Shown: positions 31,719-39,406 of the stretch, in pieces
How the letters are laid out: every line of letters begins with the position of its first letter
Position numbering within the stretch: position 1 is the stretch's first letter
NCBI GenBank assembly: GCA_024640405.1
Contig: JAHEFB010000022.1
Coordinates: 1-64,000, forward strand
Length of the DNA: 64,000 nucleotides
Direction: 5' to 3'
From: Alphaproteobacteria bacterium
GTDB taxonomy: Bacteria > Pseudomonadota > Alphaproteobacteria > Rhizobiales > Aestuariivirgaceae
Position numbers and translations under genes: made by a program
Notes under the pieces: model-generated
What the model saw: only the letters and a program-made list of their open reading frames with translations
Databases searched by the model: none
What the model was told of the DNA's origin: nothing

Positions 31719-33824
31719 ATGTTGAAGCGTTTGAGTGCTGTTCTGTTGACGTCCTGTCTGGCGTTGCCTGTCATGACCGCCTCGGTCAATGCAGAAAGCC
31801 AGGCGAGGCCGAAGAAAACCTTCAACTTCAATTCCGGTGGCAGCAGTACCCAATCGGAAAACAGCTTCTGGTCACAGCGAGCAAAACGCGCAGAGCGACG
31901 TGCAAGGAACACAGAAGAAGAGTCGTCATACAACTTCATGGACCGCACCCGCGGCTTCTTTTCACGTTCCGGTGACTTTTTTGGTCGTCAGGTGCGCTGG
32001 CGCAATTCCAGGCGCTGGCGCGATCGGATGAACTTTTCAGACGATGAGGGGCAGGTTACGGCATCGCCTGGAGAGAAGTACCATACTTACCAGGCCGGAA
32101 ATCTGGTGCCGCTGGCTGGTCGGAACCTGAAACAACCGCGGCCGAAAGGTGCCGTTTTTGCTTCCGCCTCCGGCACTGTCGTGGATGGCAATGATTATGT
32201 TGATGTCGTCAAACTGCCGAATCCGGTAGCCCAGGCCATATTCGAGGCACTCAAGCACAGTACAACCGGCATTTCACTTGCCGAGGACCAGGCTGCAGCC
32301 CTGATCGAGGCATACTCCGAACGTGAATTTGCGCCAATATGGATTGTAGACGGCAAACCGTCTGCAAACGCTCGCGCAGTTTTGAAAGTGTTGGCCAACT
32401 CCGCTCAGGAAGGTCTTGAACCGAACCTGTATCAATTATCATCGATTGAAAATGCCGGCGGTATCGACAATTTGTCGGGCGACGCTGAAAGTCTGGCGGT
32501 TTTTGAATTACAGTTGTCAGCGATGGCTTTGCGCTATTCCGCACACGCTGCAGCCGGCATGGTTACACCGAACAGGATTTCCGGTTACCACGACCTGACT
32601 CCACCGAAAATTGCAGCCAAAGATGCCGTCGCGTCACTCCTCAACCATCCCGCACCGCACGACTGGCTGATGAGCCTGCATCCGAAACTGCCTGCCTATG
32701 CGGCGATGAAAGCAGAGTTGGCCAAACTCGGTTCCAGCAACCGCGAGATTGAACAGATTGTCGTTCCGTCCGGCCCGTTGTTGAAACTGGGCGTTGACGA
32801 TGACCGTGTACCGATCCTGAGGGAACGGCTCAAACAGTTGAAATTATTAAAAAATAAGGACGAGCTGGCGCTATCGGACAATCAGGCAAGTGATGCTCCA
32901 CTGTATGGGACTGACGGATCAGTTCTGGCTGCCGACAACCCGTCGCTGACCATGAGCGAGACCGATGTTATTGCCGTCAAGGCGTTTCAAAGGAGTGTCG
33001 GTCTTAGCCCCGATGGTATCGCCGGCAGACGCACAATTGATGCTCTCAATGGCAAGAAGGCCGTAAATCGTGCCAACCAGCTTGCGCTTAACATGGAACG
33101 CCTGCGCTGGCTTCCGCGTAATCTTGGTTCGCGATACGTATTCGTGAATCAGCCCGCCTACAAGATGCAGATCATCAACAAGGGCGAAACCGAATGGTCA
33201 ACCCGCGTCATTGTTGGCAAGCCATCGAACCAGACCTACTTCTTCTCCGACCAGATGGAACGCGTGGAATTCAATCCCTACTGGGGAGTTCCGCAATCGA
33301 TCATCAAGAATGAATATTTGCACAAGGTGCAAAATAATCCCGGTTACTTTGAACAACGCGGCTATGAGGTGCTCAACAGTCGAGGCCAGCGCATCTCCGG
33401 CTGGAATGTGGATTGGTGGAATTACCGTGGTGGAATTGGCGTCCGTCAGAAACCGGGGCCCCGAAATGCATTGGGTGAAGTAAAGTTCATGTTCCCCAAC
33501 AGGCATGCCATTTATCTGCATGACACGCCTAAGCGCGCGCTGTTCGAAAAAGACAGACGCGCCTTCAGCCATGGCTGTGTACGTGTGCAAAATCCGCGCG
33601 ACCTTGCGACCCAGGTTCTTGGTTGGTCACAGGACAAGATTGCCTCGACCATAGCAGGTCGCAAGAATACGCCGGTACAACTGGCCAGGAAACTGCCTGT
33701 TCACCTGGCTTACTTCACAGCCTGGACCGATGAGGCGGGAGATTTGTCCTATTTCGAGGACGTCTACAAGCGCGACATGTACCTTGCCCGTGCGATGAAG
33801 GCAGAAAAGAATGCCCTGCGGTGA
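31719..33824 (+). CDS. L,D-transpeptidase (YcbB/LdtD-like, YkuD domain)
   Basis: A 701-residue periplasmic peptidoglycan enzyme. A signal peptide (MLKRLSAVLLTSCLALPVMT, cleavage near VNAES) is followed by a long Arg/Ser-rich region (about 30-140), a scaffold domain (about 155-320, YSEREFAPIWIVDGKPS), a peptidoglycan-binding motif (VIAVKAFQRSVGLSPDGIAG, about 420-439), and the YkuD domain with the catalytic motif in AFSHGCVRVQNP. The family forms 3-3 cross-links or anchors lipoproteins. Length is large for the family because of the basic N-terminal region. It lies close upstream of the DUF882 peptidase gene, suggesting a cell-wall pair, although about 340 bases separate them. Confidence 0.92.
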   Translation: MLKRLSAVLLTSCLALPVMTASVNAESQARPKKTFNFNSGGSSTQSENSFWSQRAKRAERRARNTEEESSYNFMDRTRGFFSRSGDFFGRQVRWRNSRRWRDRMNFSDDEGQVTASPGEKYHTYQAGNLVPLAGRNLKQPRPKGAVFASASGTVVDGNDYVDVVKLPNPVAQAIFEALKHSTTGISLAEDQAAALIEAYSEREFAPIWIVDGKPSANARAVLKVLANSAQEGLEPNLYQLSSIENAGGIDNLSGDAESLAVFELQLSAMALRYSAHAAAGMVTPNRISGYHDLTPPKIAAKDAVASLLNHPAPHDWLMSLHPKLPAYAAMKAELAKLGSSNREIEQIVVPSGPLLKLGVDDDRVPILRERLKQLKLLKNKDELALSDNQASDAPLYGTDGSVLAADNPSLTMSETDVIAVKAFQRSVGLSPDGIAGRRTIDALNGKKAVNRANQLALNMERLRWLPRNLGSRYVFVNQPAYKMQIINKGETEWSTRVIVGKPSNQTYFFSDQMERVEFNPYWGVPQSIIKNEYLHKVQNNPGYFEQRGYEVLNSRGQRISGWNVDWWNYRGGIGVRQKPGPRNALGEVKFMFPNRHAIYLHDTPKRALFEKDRRAFSHGCVRVQNPRDLATQVLGWSQDKIASTIAGRKNTPVQLARKLPVHLAYFTAWTDEAGDLSYFEDVYKRDMYLARAMKAEKNALR

Positions 33825-34167
33825 GGCAGGTTGCCTGGCAAGCAGAACAATCGATACAAAATGGTTTATGGTATTCTGCCTGAGCGCTGCTGAAATTGCG
33901 GCTGTGTCGGGCGATATCGGCGCAGGGCCGGTTTTTTCACCGTTTCGGCCATAAACCATCCCTATTCAACATAAAAACAGTAATTTTTGCAGGTGTGCTT
34001 AAGTGGGTGTTAATCAGCCTGTGCAATGATCAATTAGCTGAGTAAAAACAACGCCTAATAGCAGCCTTATTCTTGTGGTCTTTGACGAATTCGGTTACAA
34101 AGGTTTAGGAGATTCTGCTCCGAAGCAGAATCTAGGGGATGCGGGGATTACCCGTGTGATGGTGGTT
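33825..34167. other. Intergenic region and leader of the DUF882 gene
   Basis: AT-rich in the middle (33950-34070). It contains a perfect 10-bp hairpin at 34110-34133, described separately. No separate gene was found; an in-frame GTG at 34075 would extend the DUF882 protein but lacks a ribosome site. Confidence 0.4.
34110..34133 (+). promoter_or_regulatory. Perfect hairpin in the DUF882 leader
   Basis: AGATTCTGCT (34110-34119) and AGCAGAATCT (34124-34133) form a 10-bp perfect stem with loop CCGA, 34 bases before the chosen start. There is no T-run, so it is not a terminator. It may stabilise or control the mRNA, or be a protein-binding palindrome. Confidence 0.45.
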
Positions 34168-35619
34168 ATGAAGTGCAGGGTTCCTTGGACCACACTAGTT
34201 GACGGTGCGGTTTCTCAGGCCAAGCGGAAAGTTCTGACCGGTTGTTTCGCAACCACGGTCGCCTTTGGCGCGTCGGTTGCTGCCAGTGCAACAGCGTCTG
34301 CCCAAGACCGCACCCTGTCGATGTATTTCACCCACACCAAAGAAACCCTGTCGGTCACCTACAAGAGAAACGGCAAGTACGATCAGTCGGCTCTCAAGAA
34401 AATAAACTGGTTCCTGCGTGATTGGCGCCGCAACGAGCCCACCAAGATGTCATTGGAAACAATCGACCTTCTGTGGGAACTGCATGCCGATCTCGGTTCG
34501 AAAAAGCCGGTTCATATTGTTTCTGGATATCGCTCGCCTCGCACCAATGCGATGCTGAAGCGGATCGGTCGCAAGGTGGCGCGCAAATCTCAACATATGA
34601 ATGGCCGCGCAATTGATTTCTATTTCCCGGACGTTCCGGTGGAAAAGATCATGGGATCCGCCTTCGTTCGCAAGATTGGTGGCGTTGGTTACTATCCGCG
34701 TTCCGGAAAATACGGTTTCGTCCACATTGACAATGGCAGCGTCCGTCACTGGCCGCGTATGAGCGTAACACGCCAGGCCAAGATCGCCCGCAAGTACTAT
34801 AAAACTGTTGCTGCCCGAAAAGGCCGGCCCAACAATCTGCAATACGCTGCGTTCCAGCCGGCTGAGGCTCAGAGGCAGGTACCCGAAAGTACGTCCGGTC
34901 CGGTTAGTTTGATGCCGTCCAGCATGGCCGAAGCAATTGTCGCGGCTGTAGCAAAAACACCGCTGCCAACTGTGTCATTGCGCGGAGTTGTCCCGAAGCC
35001 TCGTCCAAGACCAATTGAAGTGCTCATGCTCGCTGCGGCTAATATGCAGATACAACCTGCCTCTGCGCCAGTGGAGAGGCAGAATTTCTCGGAAGACAAC
35101 ATCTCGCCTGTACGCGGCAGTCTCGGCCCGGTGACCATAGCGTCCCTGGTTTATGAAGATATGAACTCCGTCAACTCCAAAGCCAAAGGCAGTCTCAGTG
35201 CTGAAACTGCAGCCGCTGAGGGGACAGGAATTCGTCCACTCAGTGTGAGTTATGCCAACACTTCCAGTCTGAGCGACCTGTTTACCAGCACGGATGCAAT
35301 TGCCCGTCGCGACGGTGCGCCGCAACCGTTTACCCAAGACGACGAGCATGCAATTCACCCTCTCAGCAACGAGGACAAGTCCGCACTGGCCCGTTTGATC
35401 GAAGCCTTTATGCCTGGTGCCGAAAGCACCGAAGAAACCGTAACAGTCAGCAATGGCGTGAACCGGTCGGGCAAGGCTGACAGTCAGGTTGTAAACCGCT
35501 CGGGCAAGGGCAATTTCACCCCCGAAGCCGTAGGCACCCGGAAAATCTGGCAGCAAAGCGATGCGCAAAGCTCCAGAATTTTGAAAGTGGTAGAAGCACC
35601 AATAAGCTTCCGGGACTAA
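34168..35619 (+). CDS. DUF882 (YcbK/peptidase M15-like) cell-wall protein
   Basis: A 483-residue exported protein. An N-terminal signal (VLTGCFATTVAFGASVAASA, then TASAQ) precedes a DUF882/M15 domain (about 50-220) with WFLRDWRRNEPTKM, VSGYRSPRTNAML, zinc ligands in SQHMNGRAIDF and FVHIDNGSVRHW. A long Ser/Pro/Ala-rich C-terminal region (about 230-483) has low complexity. The family trims or binds peptidoglycan near L,D-transpeptidases, consistent with the neighbouring gene. Several starts are possible (34075 GTG, 34159 ATG, 34168 ATG); 34168 is chosen because the signal peptide then sits near the N-terminus. Confidence 0.85.
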   Translation: MKCRVPWTTLVDGAVSQAKRKVLTGCFATTVAFGASVAASATASAQDRTLSMYFTHTKETLSVTYKRNGKYDQSALKKINWFLRDWRRNEPTKMSLETIDLLWELHADLGSKKPVHIVSGYRSPRTNAMLKRIGRKVARKSQHMNGRAIDFYFPDVPVEKIMGSAFVRKIGGVGYYPRSGKYGFVHIDNGSVRHWPRMSVTRQAKIARKYYKTVAARKGRPNNLQYAAFQPAEAQRQVPESTSGPVSLMPSSMAEAIVAAVAKTPLPTVSLRGVVPKPRPRPIEVLMLAAANMQIQPASAPVERQNFSEDNISPVRGSLGPVTIASLVYEDMNSVNSKAKGSLSAETAAAEGTGIRPLSVSYANTSSLSDLFTSTDAIARRDGAPQPFTQDDEHAIHPLSNEDKSALARLIEAFMPGAESTEETVTVSNGVNRSGKADSQVVNRSGKGNFTPEAVGTRKIWQQSDAQSSRILKVVEAPISFRD

Positions 35620-35667
35620 AAAACTCCAATACCGTTGGGCATTGCCGCCTCGTCGTCTCGGCCTGTT

Positions 35668-36473
35668 TCAAAACTGACATTTGAAGCGCGCGCATGCTGC
35701 AAATGCATCAATCAGTTCGCGATCACAATCGCCGTCAACCGGTCCATGATAACGCCCGACCTCTGCAAGTCTTTTTTGCCAGTCTCTGGTTATTTTCGCA
35801 TCGGCAACTGAGCACATTTTTTCCCATTGCCGCAGAGCGGAATCAATCTTACCGCCATAATACATTACATCGCCAAAACTGTGCTGGACCTCCAGATCGT
35901 CCGGGAGCAGCCTGATCGCCTCTCGAATATCGCGCTCGGCCCTGACGAAATTGCCTTGCCGCAAGTAGATGTAGGCCCTTTGCTTGTAGGTACTTCCATA
36001 CTCAGGATCTATGGCTATCGCGGTAACATAGTCCTTCATTGCCGCACCGTCGTCGCCGGAAAAGGCATACGCCACGCCACGCATGACGTGAGCCTCAACA
36101 GTCGGGTTCAGCGCAATCGATTTATCAAGATCATCAGTGGCCAGTCGATTTTTTTCTGCAACTGGTACAGATACGCCCGCAGCACAAAACCAACCCAGGA
36201 CTTCGGATCGTAATCCAGCGCCCGGGTGTATTCAGCCAGCGCCGCTTCATAATCTCCGTTATCGAGATGATAACTGCCTTTCGACAAGTGCCTCGCTGCA
36301 GCATCCGGGCCAGTTGTTTGAGCGGTGCCTGAATCAGGTGGGCTGGAAACCGTGACCGCAATGAAATGCTTCGCCGGTCGCGCTTTGCCAACGTCATTGT
36401 CCGCACCCGAATTCACCCAGCCCGGTTGTATACTCGCAATAACGGCGACCATACCCAGGACTGCTGAATTCAT
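35668..36473 (-). pseudogene. TPR-repeat protein, frameshifted at an A7 run
   Basis: The sequence reads as one protein split in two frames. The first part (36473 to 36108) starts MNSAVLGMVAVIASIQPGW, with a possible signal, and includes the TPR segment GDYEAALAEYTRALDYDPKS; it then shifts after LYQLQKK. The other frame continues as NRLATDDLDKSIALNPTVEA, then GDDGAAMKDYVTAIAIDPEY and two further TPRs to a stop at 35668. The change occurs at CAG-AAA-AAA-ATC on the minus strand (A7, about 36148-36154). A -1 slip at the A run, or one extra A, restores about 267 residues. It may be a genuine pseudogene, programmed slippage, or a sequencing error. TPR proteins mediate protein contacts; the role is unknown. 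Confidence 0.75.
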
Positions 36474-36537
36474 TGGTTCGCATCCTCAGTTGTTCCGGCG
36501 ATCAAAAACCTGTCCCGACCCCGTCGAAATCGGAAAT

Positions 36538-36825
36538 TCATTCAGCAGCAGCGATGCCGTCCTGCTCTGTGCTCTCAGGCCCGATCATGCCAAGTGCGCT
36601 GAGATAAAGATCCAGGATGGCTTCTTCTTCCTGACGTTCCGTACTGTCTTTCTTTCGAAGCGTAACAACCTTCCGCATGATCTTGGTGTCAAAGCCATTG
36701 GCCTTGGCCTCGCCGTAGACCTCCTTGATATCAGCCGCAATCGCCTTCTTCTCTTCTTCAAGCCGTTCAATACGCTCGATCAGGCTTCTCAGCTGGCCCT
36801 GCGCAAAACTGGTTTTCGTTTCCAT
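36538..36825 (-). CDS. gapR: GapR family nucleoid-associated protein (DUF2312)
   Basis: A 95-residue helical protein: [20 protein letters not shown], then [20 protein letters not shown] and [11 protein letters not shown]2312/GapR of Caulobacter is a tetrameric clamp that binds overtwisted, AT-rich DNA ahead of replication and transcription forks and helps topoisomerases. Length and core motifs match. The acidic C-terminal tail is a little longer than usual. Confidence 0.92.
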
Positions 36826-36949
36826 TAGTTAAGTCCGCTCTATCTAATCTGGATCAGAATGATCCCGGTTGCATCGGGCACAAATCATGCACCTGATCGC
36901 CTCTCATTCACTGCAGCAATTCAATGGATCCTTGCGAACCCACATTGCC

Positions 36950-37246
36950 CTAATGTCCGGTATGCGACTTTGCAAACGCCTCCGCCTGTGCAGCCGTTGC
37001 CTCGGTCTGATACTTGGCTTTCCATTCCTCATATGGCATCCCGTAGACTTGCTCGCGGGCCGCTTCCTTGTCCAGCGCAATACCGGTTTCATCCGCAGCA
37101 TCTTTCAACCAGTTGGACAGGCAGTTTCGGCAAAAACCGCCCAGATTCATCAGATCAATGTTCTGAACATCCGTACGTTCCCGCAAATGTGCCACAAGGC
37201 GCCGAAATGCGGCCGCTTCCAGTTCGGTCTGGGTTTTCAGATCCAT
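36950..37246 (-). CDS. DUF1244 family protein
   Basis: A 98-residue soluble protein. It carries the family block AAAFRRLVAHLRERTDVQNI followed by DLMNLGGFCRNCLSNW (two conserved cysteines) and YGMPYEEWKAKYQ. Structures of family members show a small helical dimer; the biochemical role is unknown. The gene begins 2 bases after the N-formylglutamate amidohydrolase stop, an adjacency common in alphaproteobacteria, so the two are cotranscribed. Confidence 0.92.
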   Translation of the reverse strand: MDLKTQTELEAAAFRRLVAHLRERTDVQNIDLMNLGGFCRNCLSNWLKDAADETGIALDKEAAREQVYGMPYEEWKAKYQTEATAAQAEAFAKSHTGH

Positions 37247-37248
37247 TT

Positions 37249-38082
37249 TTACTTGTCTCCTGAAGCTCTGTTGTACGCCAGAGATTTGATCTGGTCGTTG
37301 ACAACCATATGATCAATTACATCCGCCAACCGATCAATCCATTGTGACACACCTTCAGCGTCTGAAATCAGATCCTGGCGGATTTCCAGCAATGTATGAG
37401 GCAGTCCTCGCTTTACCGCATGTGTGTTCATGCAGTCTCCCACAAGTCCACCGGCATAAGGCACATTGTCGCCGACAACCAGATTGGGATCTGCAGACAG
37501 CGCCTGAATAAACAGGTCGGAACACCGCCTGTCGTCCTCCCACAACAAACCTGCATGCCATGGACGCGCAACGCCCTTCCAGGCAGGCGTAAAGCTGTGA
37601 ACAGATATCAATACAGGCGCTACATCATCTGCAATTGCTGCATCAATTTCAGCATCGATTGCGCGATGGTAAGGTTGATAATACCGCGAAAGTCTCAAGT
37701 TCCGCTCATTGTCATCGATATCCCGGTTGCCGGGCACCACGGCTCCATCCGACAGTTGCATGATCAGTGTCGGATCATCCATGCCGCGGTTGGGGTCAAT
37801 CAGCAATCTGGAGAAACACGACAATACCGCAGGAACTCCCAGTCTTGCCGCCAGGCCGTTCACAACAGCCTCAACACCGATATCATAGGCAATATGTCGT
37901 TCGAACTCTGACGCAGGCAGCCCCAGATTGCCATAAACCTCCGGCAAAGTACTCCTGGCATGATCGCAAACCAGCAGTATTCCGCGCGTGCGATCGCCCG
38001 GCAATACATAGTGGCTGGTAAACTCGGACTGGTCTTCCGAGTCGGCTGGAGCAGTATAAGGGACTGTAGAAACGATATTCAT
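37249..38082 (-). CDS. N-formylglutamate amidohydrolase
   Basis: A 277-residue zinc enzyme of the FGase family (PF05013) that hydrolyses N-formylglutamate to formate and glutamate, the last step of one histidine-degradation route. Family-like motifs are GILLVCDHARSTLPEVYGN (metal His and Asp), SRLLIDPNRGMDDPTLI, ISVHSFTPAW and the C-terminal LPHTLLEIRQDLI. Start 38082 is chosen over a longer frame to 38190 with no similarity. No hut genes are nearby, so the substrate may be a related N-formyl amino acid. Confidence 0.9.
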   Translation of the reverse strand: MNIVSTVPYTAPADSEDQSEFTSHYVLPGDRTRGILLVCDHARSTLPEVYGNLGLPASEFERHIAYDIGVEAVVNGLAARLGVPAVLSCFSRLLIDPNRGMDDPTLIMQLSDGAVVPGNRDIDDNERNLRLSRYYQPYHRAIDAEIDAAIADDVAPVLISVHSFTPAWKGVARPWHAGLLWEDDRRCSDLFIQALSADPNLVVGDNVPYAGGLVGDCMNTHAVKRGLPHTLLEIRQDLISDAEGVSQWIDRLADVIDHMVVNDQIKSLAYNRASGDK

Positions 38083-38462
38083 GATGCGACGGACTATAGA
38101 GCATATTTCATTTATGTAGAGTCGTTTGACCGGTTTTCTGCGTTTGCTGTCAAGGCGCGGCTGCCACCCTGGCCTGTTGACCACAAGCAAGCAACAGCGC
38201 AGTTCGGCGGGCTTGGGAAACCGGCCTCCGGTGGACCAAATCGGTTCATCGGCGTTGTTGCAATGTTTGCCCGATGCCCCACATCGCGCTTCACTTTGCG
38301 CCTGGAGCGAAACAGGTTTTTGATTTTATCGAAGCCGCGCTCCAGACATTATTGCCGCATGCCTTCGTTCGCAAAACCGCTCACACTTTTGCGAGACATG
38401 CTGGAGCCGAATAAACCGATTTGATGTCATCAAACGCTTCTATCTGGGCGAAAACTGCTCTA
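38083..38462. other. 380-base gap, no gene supported
   Basis: The gap lies between the N-formylglutamate amidohydrolase start and a MITE-like repeat. Short frames on both strands have no ribosome sites or recognisable products. The promoter of the leftward operon must lie near 38085-38150. Confidence 0.4.
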
Positions 38463-38725
38463 GGTCAGGACCCACTAATCTTGTCCATTCTGCGGGAGGA
38501 TATTTTGCCTGTGACAAGGCGAAAGGTCGAAGGAAACCGCCCGGCTCTCAATACATTTCAACGCAGTCGGAGGCAAAATAGACCCCGTCCTTCGGGTTTG
38601 AAGGAAAACTCCCGCCTGAAGTCGCAAAATGCTCGAAAAGGCACAACGCCTTGTCTTGTGCTTTTTCACCATCATTCGAATGTTTTCTTTCAAACAGAAT
38701 TGCATAAGATTAGTGGGTCCTGACC
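38463..38725. mobile_element. 263-base MITE-like element with 20-bp perfect terminal inverted repeats
   Basis: GGTCAGGACCCACTAATCTT at 38463-38482 is repeated exactly, inverted, at 38706-38725. The 20-bp arms enclose about 220 bases with no transposase, only a short internal hairpin (around AAAAGGCACAA/TTGTGCTTTT). The right arm is preceded by a T-rich stretch. This is the shape of a miniature inverted-repeat transposable element mobilised in trans, and the ends resemble IS tips (GGGGTCAGGACCC...), though I cannot name the parental IS. No clear target duplication was identified. Confidence 0.65.
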
Positions 38726-38965
38726 CCAGCATGCTTGACCAGATCACAGAACACGTTGATAACATGTAGCGCGGCGTAGCGTCATGAAGCCATTGAACTG
38801 CCATTATTGCGATGGCATTTTGGCGTTGGCCAAACCGAGGTTTCGCCGTCACAATGGATTGGGCATCAGCATCAGGTTTCTTGCGCTGGTGATGTCCGGA
38901 TCGGGTTCGAATAGGGAAGGACAACGGATCGCCTCGTACGTCCGTGTCTGTGGGAAAGACTGCAT
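38726..38965. other. Gap between the MITE-like element and the DUF1036 gene
   Basis: No supported gene. A 61-codon plus-strand frame from 38784 and a long minus-strand frame that crosses the whole repeat element have no ribosome site, family motif or coherent product. The promoter of the DUF1036 gene is expected here. Confidence 0.35.
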
Positions 38966-39406
38966 ATGAAGCGTTCACTTCTTATTGCTTTGGCTGTTGC
39001 CGCACCGGCATTTTTCGCACAGCCGGCACCAGCACACGCAGATCTCAAACTGTGCAATTTAACACCCAGCCGGGTGGGCGTGGCCCTCGGCTACAAGGAC
39101 CAGCAGGGCTGGGCTTCCGAAGGCTGGTGGAACATTGCAGCCAACGCTTGCGAAACACTGCTGAAAGGCCCCCTGATAGCGCGCTGGTATTATATTTATG
39201 CTGTCGACTACGACAATGGCGGATCCTGGGGTGGCAGCGCCCAAATGTGCAGCCGTGACAAGCTGTTCACCATCCGCGGTCTGAAGAGCTGTCAGGAACG
39301 CGGTTACAAGCAGACCGGTTTCTTCGAAGTCGACACAGGTGAAAACACCGATTGGACCATTCGCCTTGAAGGTGCAAAAACCCAGCCGGCTCCTGCTACA
39401 CAATAA
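38966..39406 (+). CDS. DUF1036 family exported protein
   Basis: A 146-residue protein with a Sec signal peptide (MKRSLLIALAVAAPAFFAQP, cleavage near AHA-DLK). The DUF1036 domain follows: LKLCNLTPSRVGVALGYKDQ, WASEGWWNIAANACETLL, WYYIYAVDYDNGG and four further cysteines probably in disulfides. Function unknown; related genes often sit near pyruvate kinase in Rhizobiales, as here (31 bases upstream of pyk), so the two are likely cotranscribed. Confidence 0.9.
   Translation: MKRSLLIALAVAAPAFFAQPAPAHADLKLCNLTPSRVGVALGYKDQQGWASEGWWNIAANACETLLKGPLIARWYYIYAVDYDNGGSWGGSAQMCSRDKLFTIRGLKSCQERGYKQTGFFEVDTGENTDWTIRLEGAKTQPAPATQ

Follow-up and report, generated by a model that had tools for sequence, protein, structure and literature searches.

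The window, a stretch of 64,000 nucleotides representing contig C70 of a 4.37-Mb genome in 108 contigs, carries on its minus strand a split TPR gene made of two overlapping reading frames, 36473-36108 and 36150-35668, which were confirmed by the ORF list and by translation (Table 1). The start frame contains a hydrophobic N-terminus, a first TPR and the AAA-AAA codons, followed by 15 out-of-frame residues and a TGA stop. The -1 frame encodes the remaining TPRs and a cysteine-containing C-terminus. Since this -1 frame is free of stops over 160 codons, whereas the same stretch read in its two remaining frames is interrupted 7 and 11 times within 159 codons, its openness is not a matter of chance. 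In the Pfam comparison, the -1 frame piece matches TPR_2 at 53.3 bits (cut-off 27) and stands above the Pfam TPR cut-offs; the upstream piece, taken alone, gives weak TPR matches that all fall below them. The upstream frame aligns with the orthologue in the related genome G004 as far as a run of seven A residues, the A7 run, at which the two frames join.

A GapR-like gene lies upstream of the split gene and a convergent DUF882/Peptidase_M15_2 gene downstream, and both serve as synteny markers. The downstream neighbour also has an NCBIfam MepK match of 175.3 bits, just under the cut-off of 185.

Table 1. Coordinates of the split TPR gene, its junction and its neighbours in the window.
Feature	Coordinates	Strand	Evidence
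TPR gene, start frame, 121 aa	36108..36473	-	ORF listing, translation, alignment to G004 orthologue
TPR gene, remainder in the -1 frame, stop included	35668..36150	-	Translation, Pfam TPR, orthologues 75%/73% identical
A7 run, junction of the two frames, codon phase CAG AAA AAA ATC	36149..36155	-	Sequence; one-base gap relative to both orthologues
GAGG eight bases before an in-frame ATG (first base 36084), possible internal start	36084..36096	-	Sequence, alignment
GapR-like gene, upstream neighbour, synteny marker	36538..36825	-	Pfam GapR_DNA-bd; NCBIfam
DUF882/Peptidase_M15_2 gene, downstream convergent neighbour, synteny marker	34075..35619	+	Pfam

The TPR gene is present in three of the six genomes of the genus, namely that of the window, G004 and G001; the other three yield only weak TPR matches, with E values of 4.5e-7 or worse. 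In both relatives the orthologue is a single open frame, of 278 codons from stop to stop (268 aa from the ATG) in G004 and of 272 codons (267 aa) in G001, and it sits between the same GapR-like and DUF882 genes as in the window. The two orthologues are 75% and 73% identical to the -1 frame piece across all of its 160 residues, and the G004 protein matches Pfam TPR_2 at 81.4 bits.

In the three-way DNA alignment of the window, G004 and G001, one base is missing from the window at the A7 run: each orthologue is one base longer between the conserved CAG/CAA and CTGGCC that flank the break, and the run itself is absent from both. This upholds the main claim made earlier for this DNA, a TPR gene interrupted by a single-base shift, and the alignment indicates that the two ORFs belong to one frameshifted TPR gene. 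Neither of the two orthologues aligned ends in a stop at this position with the downstream part missing, the pattern that had been named as one that would speak against this reading. Two details do need correction. The run had been placed at 36148-36154, and it actually occupies 36155..36149, one base away; the slip phase had been given as A-AAA-AAA, and the frame-0 codons at the run are CAG and then AAA-AAA-A(TC).

In wider searches, homologues were found in 7 of 69 genomes of the family (E <= 1e-12) and in 9 of 397 genomes of the order (E <= 1e-15), the window's own genome being included in both counts, while an alignment-based scan of a named genome collection gave one locus, probably the G001 copy again. 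Ten distant homologues were read for the extent of their frame, the alignment of the junction covering G004 and G001 only, and in nine of them the same open frame extends at least 100 residues ahead of the matched part. The copy in genome G162 (locus L074) differs: its frame begins only 41 residues ahead of that part, inspection by eye showed no TPR in this portion, and the copy is therefore truncated or broken elsewhere. It is a 163-codon ORF on the reverse strand, a distant homologue with the C-terminal part only, and its C-terminal domain contains a GS-repeat, GSGSGSGSG, apparently a small tandem expansion. In the family, the C-terminus (window 35671-36150, C-terminal third) follows a conserved three-cysteine form, W..RL...G.Y.G.VDG.CD....AF..CA...C.F, which distant homologues have as well. 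Its G.Y.G..DG part, which we take to be reminiscent of peptidoglycan-binding motifs, gave no Pfam match in the family search.

The interval between the DUF882 and GapR-like genes, 35620-36537 in the window, is a variable gene position in the genus. In G003 the two flanking genes are about 130 bp apart, without a TPR gene between them, and in G002 the interval is occupied by two different ORFs (464 and 335 aa) whose sequences resemble cytochrome bd subunits. For G005, in which the GapR-like neighbour was not found, no inference is made about the locus. Given the absence of the TPR gene at the G003 locus and the presence of other ORFs at the G002 locus, the gene can be regarded as accessory and dispensable in the genus.

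Over almost the whole of its independent history, the piece after the break has evolved as a coding sequence. For its 160 codons, dN/dS is 0.074 between the window and G004 and 0.092 between the window and G001, as compared with 0.075 between G004 and G001; these are Nei-Gojobori-type estimates and only approximate, because pS, at 0.70-0.71, places dS close to saturation. Evolution of this kind implies that the break is young, is absent from the cell, or is bypassed. Of the 1440 single substitutions in the piece, 58 create a stop, and in simulation about 0.2 neutral changes per site are needed before the probability of finding no stop drops to 0.05; "recent" is therefore a loose term here, 5% of neutral copies being stop-free even at 0.2 changes per site. 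Within that latitude, the low dN/dS and the lack of a second stop in 160 codons fit a young break.

We propose that the TPR frame was broken, in this lineage only, when the sequence changed in length by one base at the A7 run or beside it, replication slippage in the recent past being the most likely cause. Initiation at the normal start would then yield a 121-aa product ending inside the second TPR, so that the full-length protein would not be made. The pattern is that of a recent pseudogene, with intact orthologues in relatives and a disruption private to one lineage among the genomes examined. The TPR gene is thus probably a young allele, and we infer that it is null. A real, recent one-base indel, found in this genome and in no other examined, has in our estimation about an even chance; its presence in the cell, as opposed to the assembly alone, is an inference. 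A recent mutation nevertheless seems a little likelier than a sequence error.

This last is the strongest rival. It holds that the cell carries an intact gene and that the contig lost one base in the homopolymer, and we consider it a serious possibility, at somewhat less than even probability. In its favor, the break coincides with a homopolymer, the sequence that follows is as constrained as the intact copies, and the assembly, in 108 contigs, has 93.72% completeness, 4.45% contamination and a 100-N run in contig C1. Moreover, passages of PMC3711429 give the expectation that unclustered frameshifts with BLASTp support are mainly sequencing errors, which counts against a real mutation in a case that is homologous and unclustered. 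The GeneTack class of singleton frameshifted genes, described there as hypothetical pseudogenes or errors, is alike in being a homology-confirmed frameshift that is not in relatives and has no conserved motif; as far as those passages go, it shows no difference from the TPR gene in the features testable here.

The error reading has to be set against how the rest of the assembly behaves. A total of 299,214 bases of the genome (the window, C34, 100 kb of C21, and C3) were surveyed against 440,000 bases of G004. An orthologue-like match in the surveyed bases was found for 225 of 419 mechanical G004 ORFs, and a frame change was signalled in eight distinct ORFs (nine rows), the TPR gene being one of them. 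On inspection by eye we judged seven of the eight to be artefactual, arising from mechanical ORF or start extension or from antisense ORFs, which leaves the TPR gene as the only one truly broken. The comparison was also run in reverse as a control: of 279 ORFs from the window's own genome, 233 had a match in G004; there were six candidates, and the three inspected were artefacts. Since the ORF lists are mechanical, the counts of 225 and 233 include some false ORFs. With just one true break among 225 comparable ORFs, the assembly is not broadly indel-ridden, and we reject the notion of a frameshift-ridden assembly. For a bacterial genome, one true indel in 225 genes is nothing unusual.

Homopolymers elsewhere in the assembly also speak against the error reading. 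Among 18 runs of at least 7 in the 299 kb, ten lie within a single tblastn alignment without a shift, two of these resting on weak ORF matches (64-66% identity). Four are at an alignment edge, among them the A7 run of the TPR gene, which is the sole one of the four examined individually, and four are outside matches. Nor are A/T runs of 7 depleted in this genome: there are 23 in 379 kb, versus 8 in 440 kb of G004, while runs of length 8 number two in each.

If the mutation is real, the 7-A allele may be tolerated as leaky instead of dead, with low-level slippage at AAA-AAA (A_AAA) or a restart at an internal ATG supplying some full-length or C-terminal protein, though we think this very unlikely. 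Recoding, programmed or tolerated, in which -1 ribosomal slippage or RNA polymerase slippage would yield some full-length protein, is also very unlikely. The low dN/dS downstream of the break agrees with it, and the frame-0 tetramer at the second AAA codon, A_AAA, is a Z_ZZN motif in the terms used in passages of PMC4066793. However, the slippery heptamer as defined in that paper is X_XXZ_ZZN, whereas the frame-0 heptamer here is G_AAA_AAA, so that no such heptamer stands in the correct phase and only the tetramer fits. The site is not conserved, as G004 and G001, the two orthologues aligned at it, lack the run and have a single frame each. By eye, no SD-like GAGG, GGAG or AGGA is seen as a stimulator in the 20 bases upstream of the run. 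In the 87 nt from the run onward, the RNA is no more structured than its shuffles (z 0.08, 103 of 200 shuffles folding as well), a result that concerns local folding and not distant or pseudoknotted stimulators; the hairpin just downstream of the slip site that the preliminary description had suggested seeking is thus not seen beyond chance. Rfam gave 0 matches within 33000-39000 at gathering thresholds, and a promoter scan, which is not informative, found none.

The length of the run bears on transcriptional slippage. According to PMC6260861, the bacterial (E. coli) RNA polymerase slips only on runs of 7 T or longer, and A runs have to be longer still; judged by this E. coli requirement, the 7 A present in the mRNA sense fall short. 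Selection against slippage is, in passages of PMC1088944, evident at run length nine in a large proportion of genomes. One close parallel is tssM1 of Citrobacter rodentium, which is likewise interrupted after a poly-A run with the remainder of the protein in another frame. In the account given in passages of PMC4256274, tssM1 is rescued by transcriptional slippage with about 20% frameshifting; its run has 11 A, in contrast to 7 A here, and the rescue was shown by Western blot and mass spectrometry. The A_AAA_AAG-type heptamers described in passages of PMC4066793 share with the TPR site the lysine AAA codons at the shift and the need for a -1 shift, but the TPR site is in the wrong phase, its motif is not conserved, and no stimulator was found. 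Codon phase, conservation, structure and the length of the run accordingly lead us to reject both programmed -1 frameshifting and RNA polymerase slippage. Of the four options offered at the outset for this break, two agree with the evidence, a recent pseudogene and a sequence error, whereas programmed -1 frameshifting and transcriptional slippage are unsupported. The split of the TPR gene is not evidence of programmed recoding.

A split gene with coupled translation, in which the ORF 36084-35668 would restart at its internal ATG and give a separate 138-aa protein, is very unlikely. The ATG begins 23 bases past the TGA of the first ORF and has GAGG eight bases ahead of it, but the methionine it specifies lies within a TPR and is shared by both orthologues, in each of which GAAG stands in place of the GAGG; the product, moreover, would be without the N-terminal hydrophobic segment. 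Reversible on-off switching (phase variation) by change of run length is the least probable of all, as, despite the homopolymer at the break, the run is missing from the orthologues and, at seven bases, is short by the standard of contingency runs.

The case thus comes down to a frameshifted accessory gene of an ordinary sort or to an error of one base in the consensus. Its chief importance is to annotators: both ORFs ought to be entered as a single frameshifted TPR gene, neither as two small proteins nor as a case of recoding. Leaky expression at a 7-A site without stimulators would, if shown, have some modest bearing on the way in which young pseudogenes decay.

Two repeat families were noticed in G004. 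An element of about 105 bp (L049:18500-18605) has more than 30 further matches across G004 and constitutes a short interspersed repeat family; one of its matches, at G004:C1:1887421-1887526, is just upstream of the GapR-like gene. The second family (L046:11602-11796) has dozens of matches in G004 and is tandem in places.
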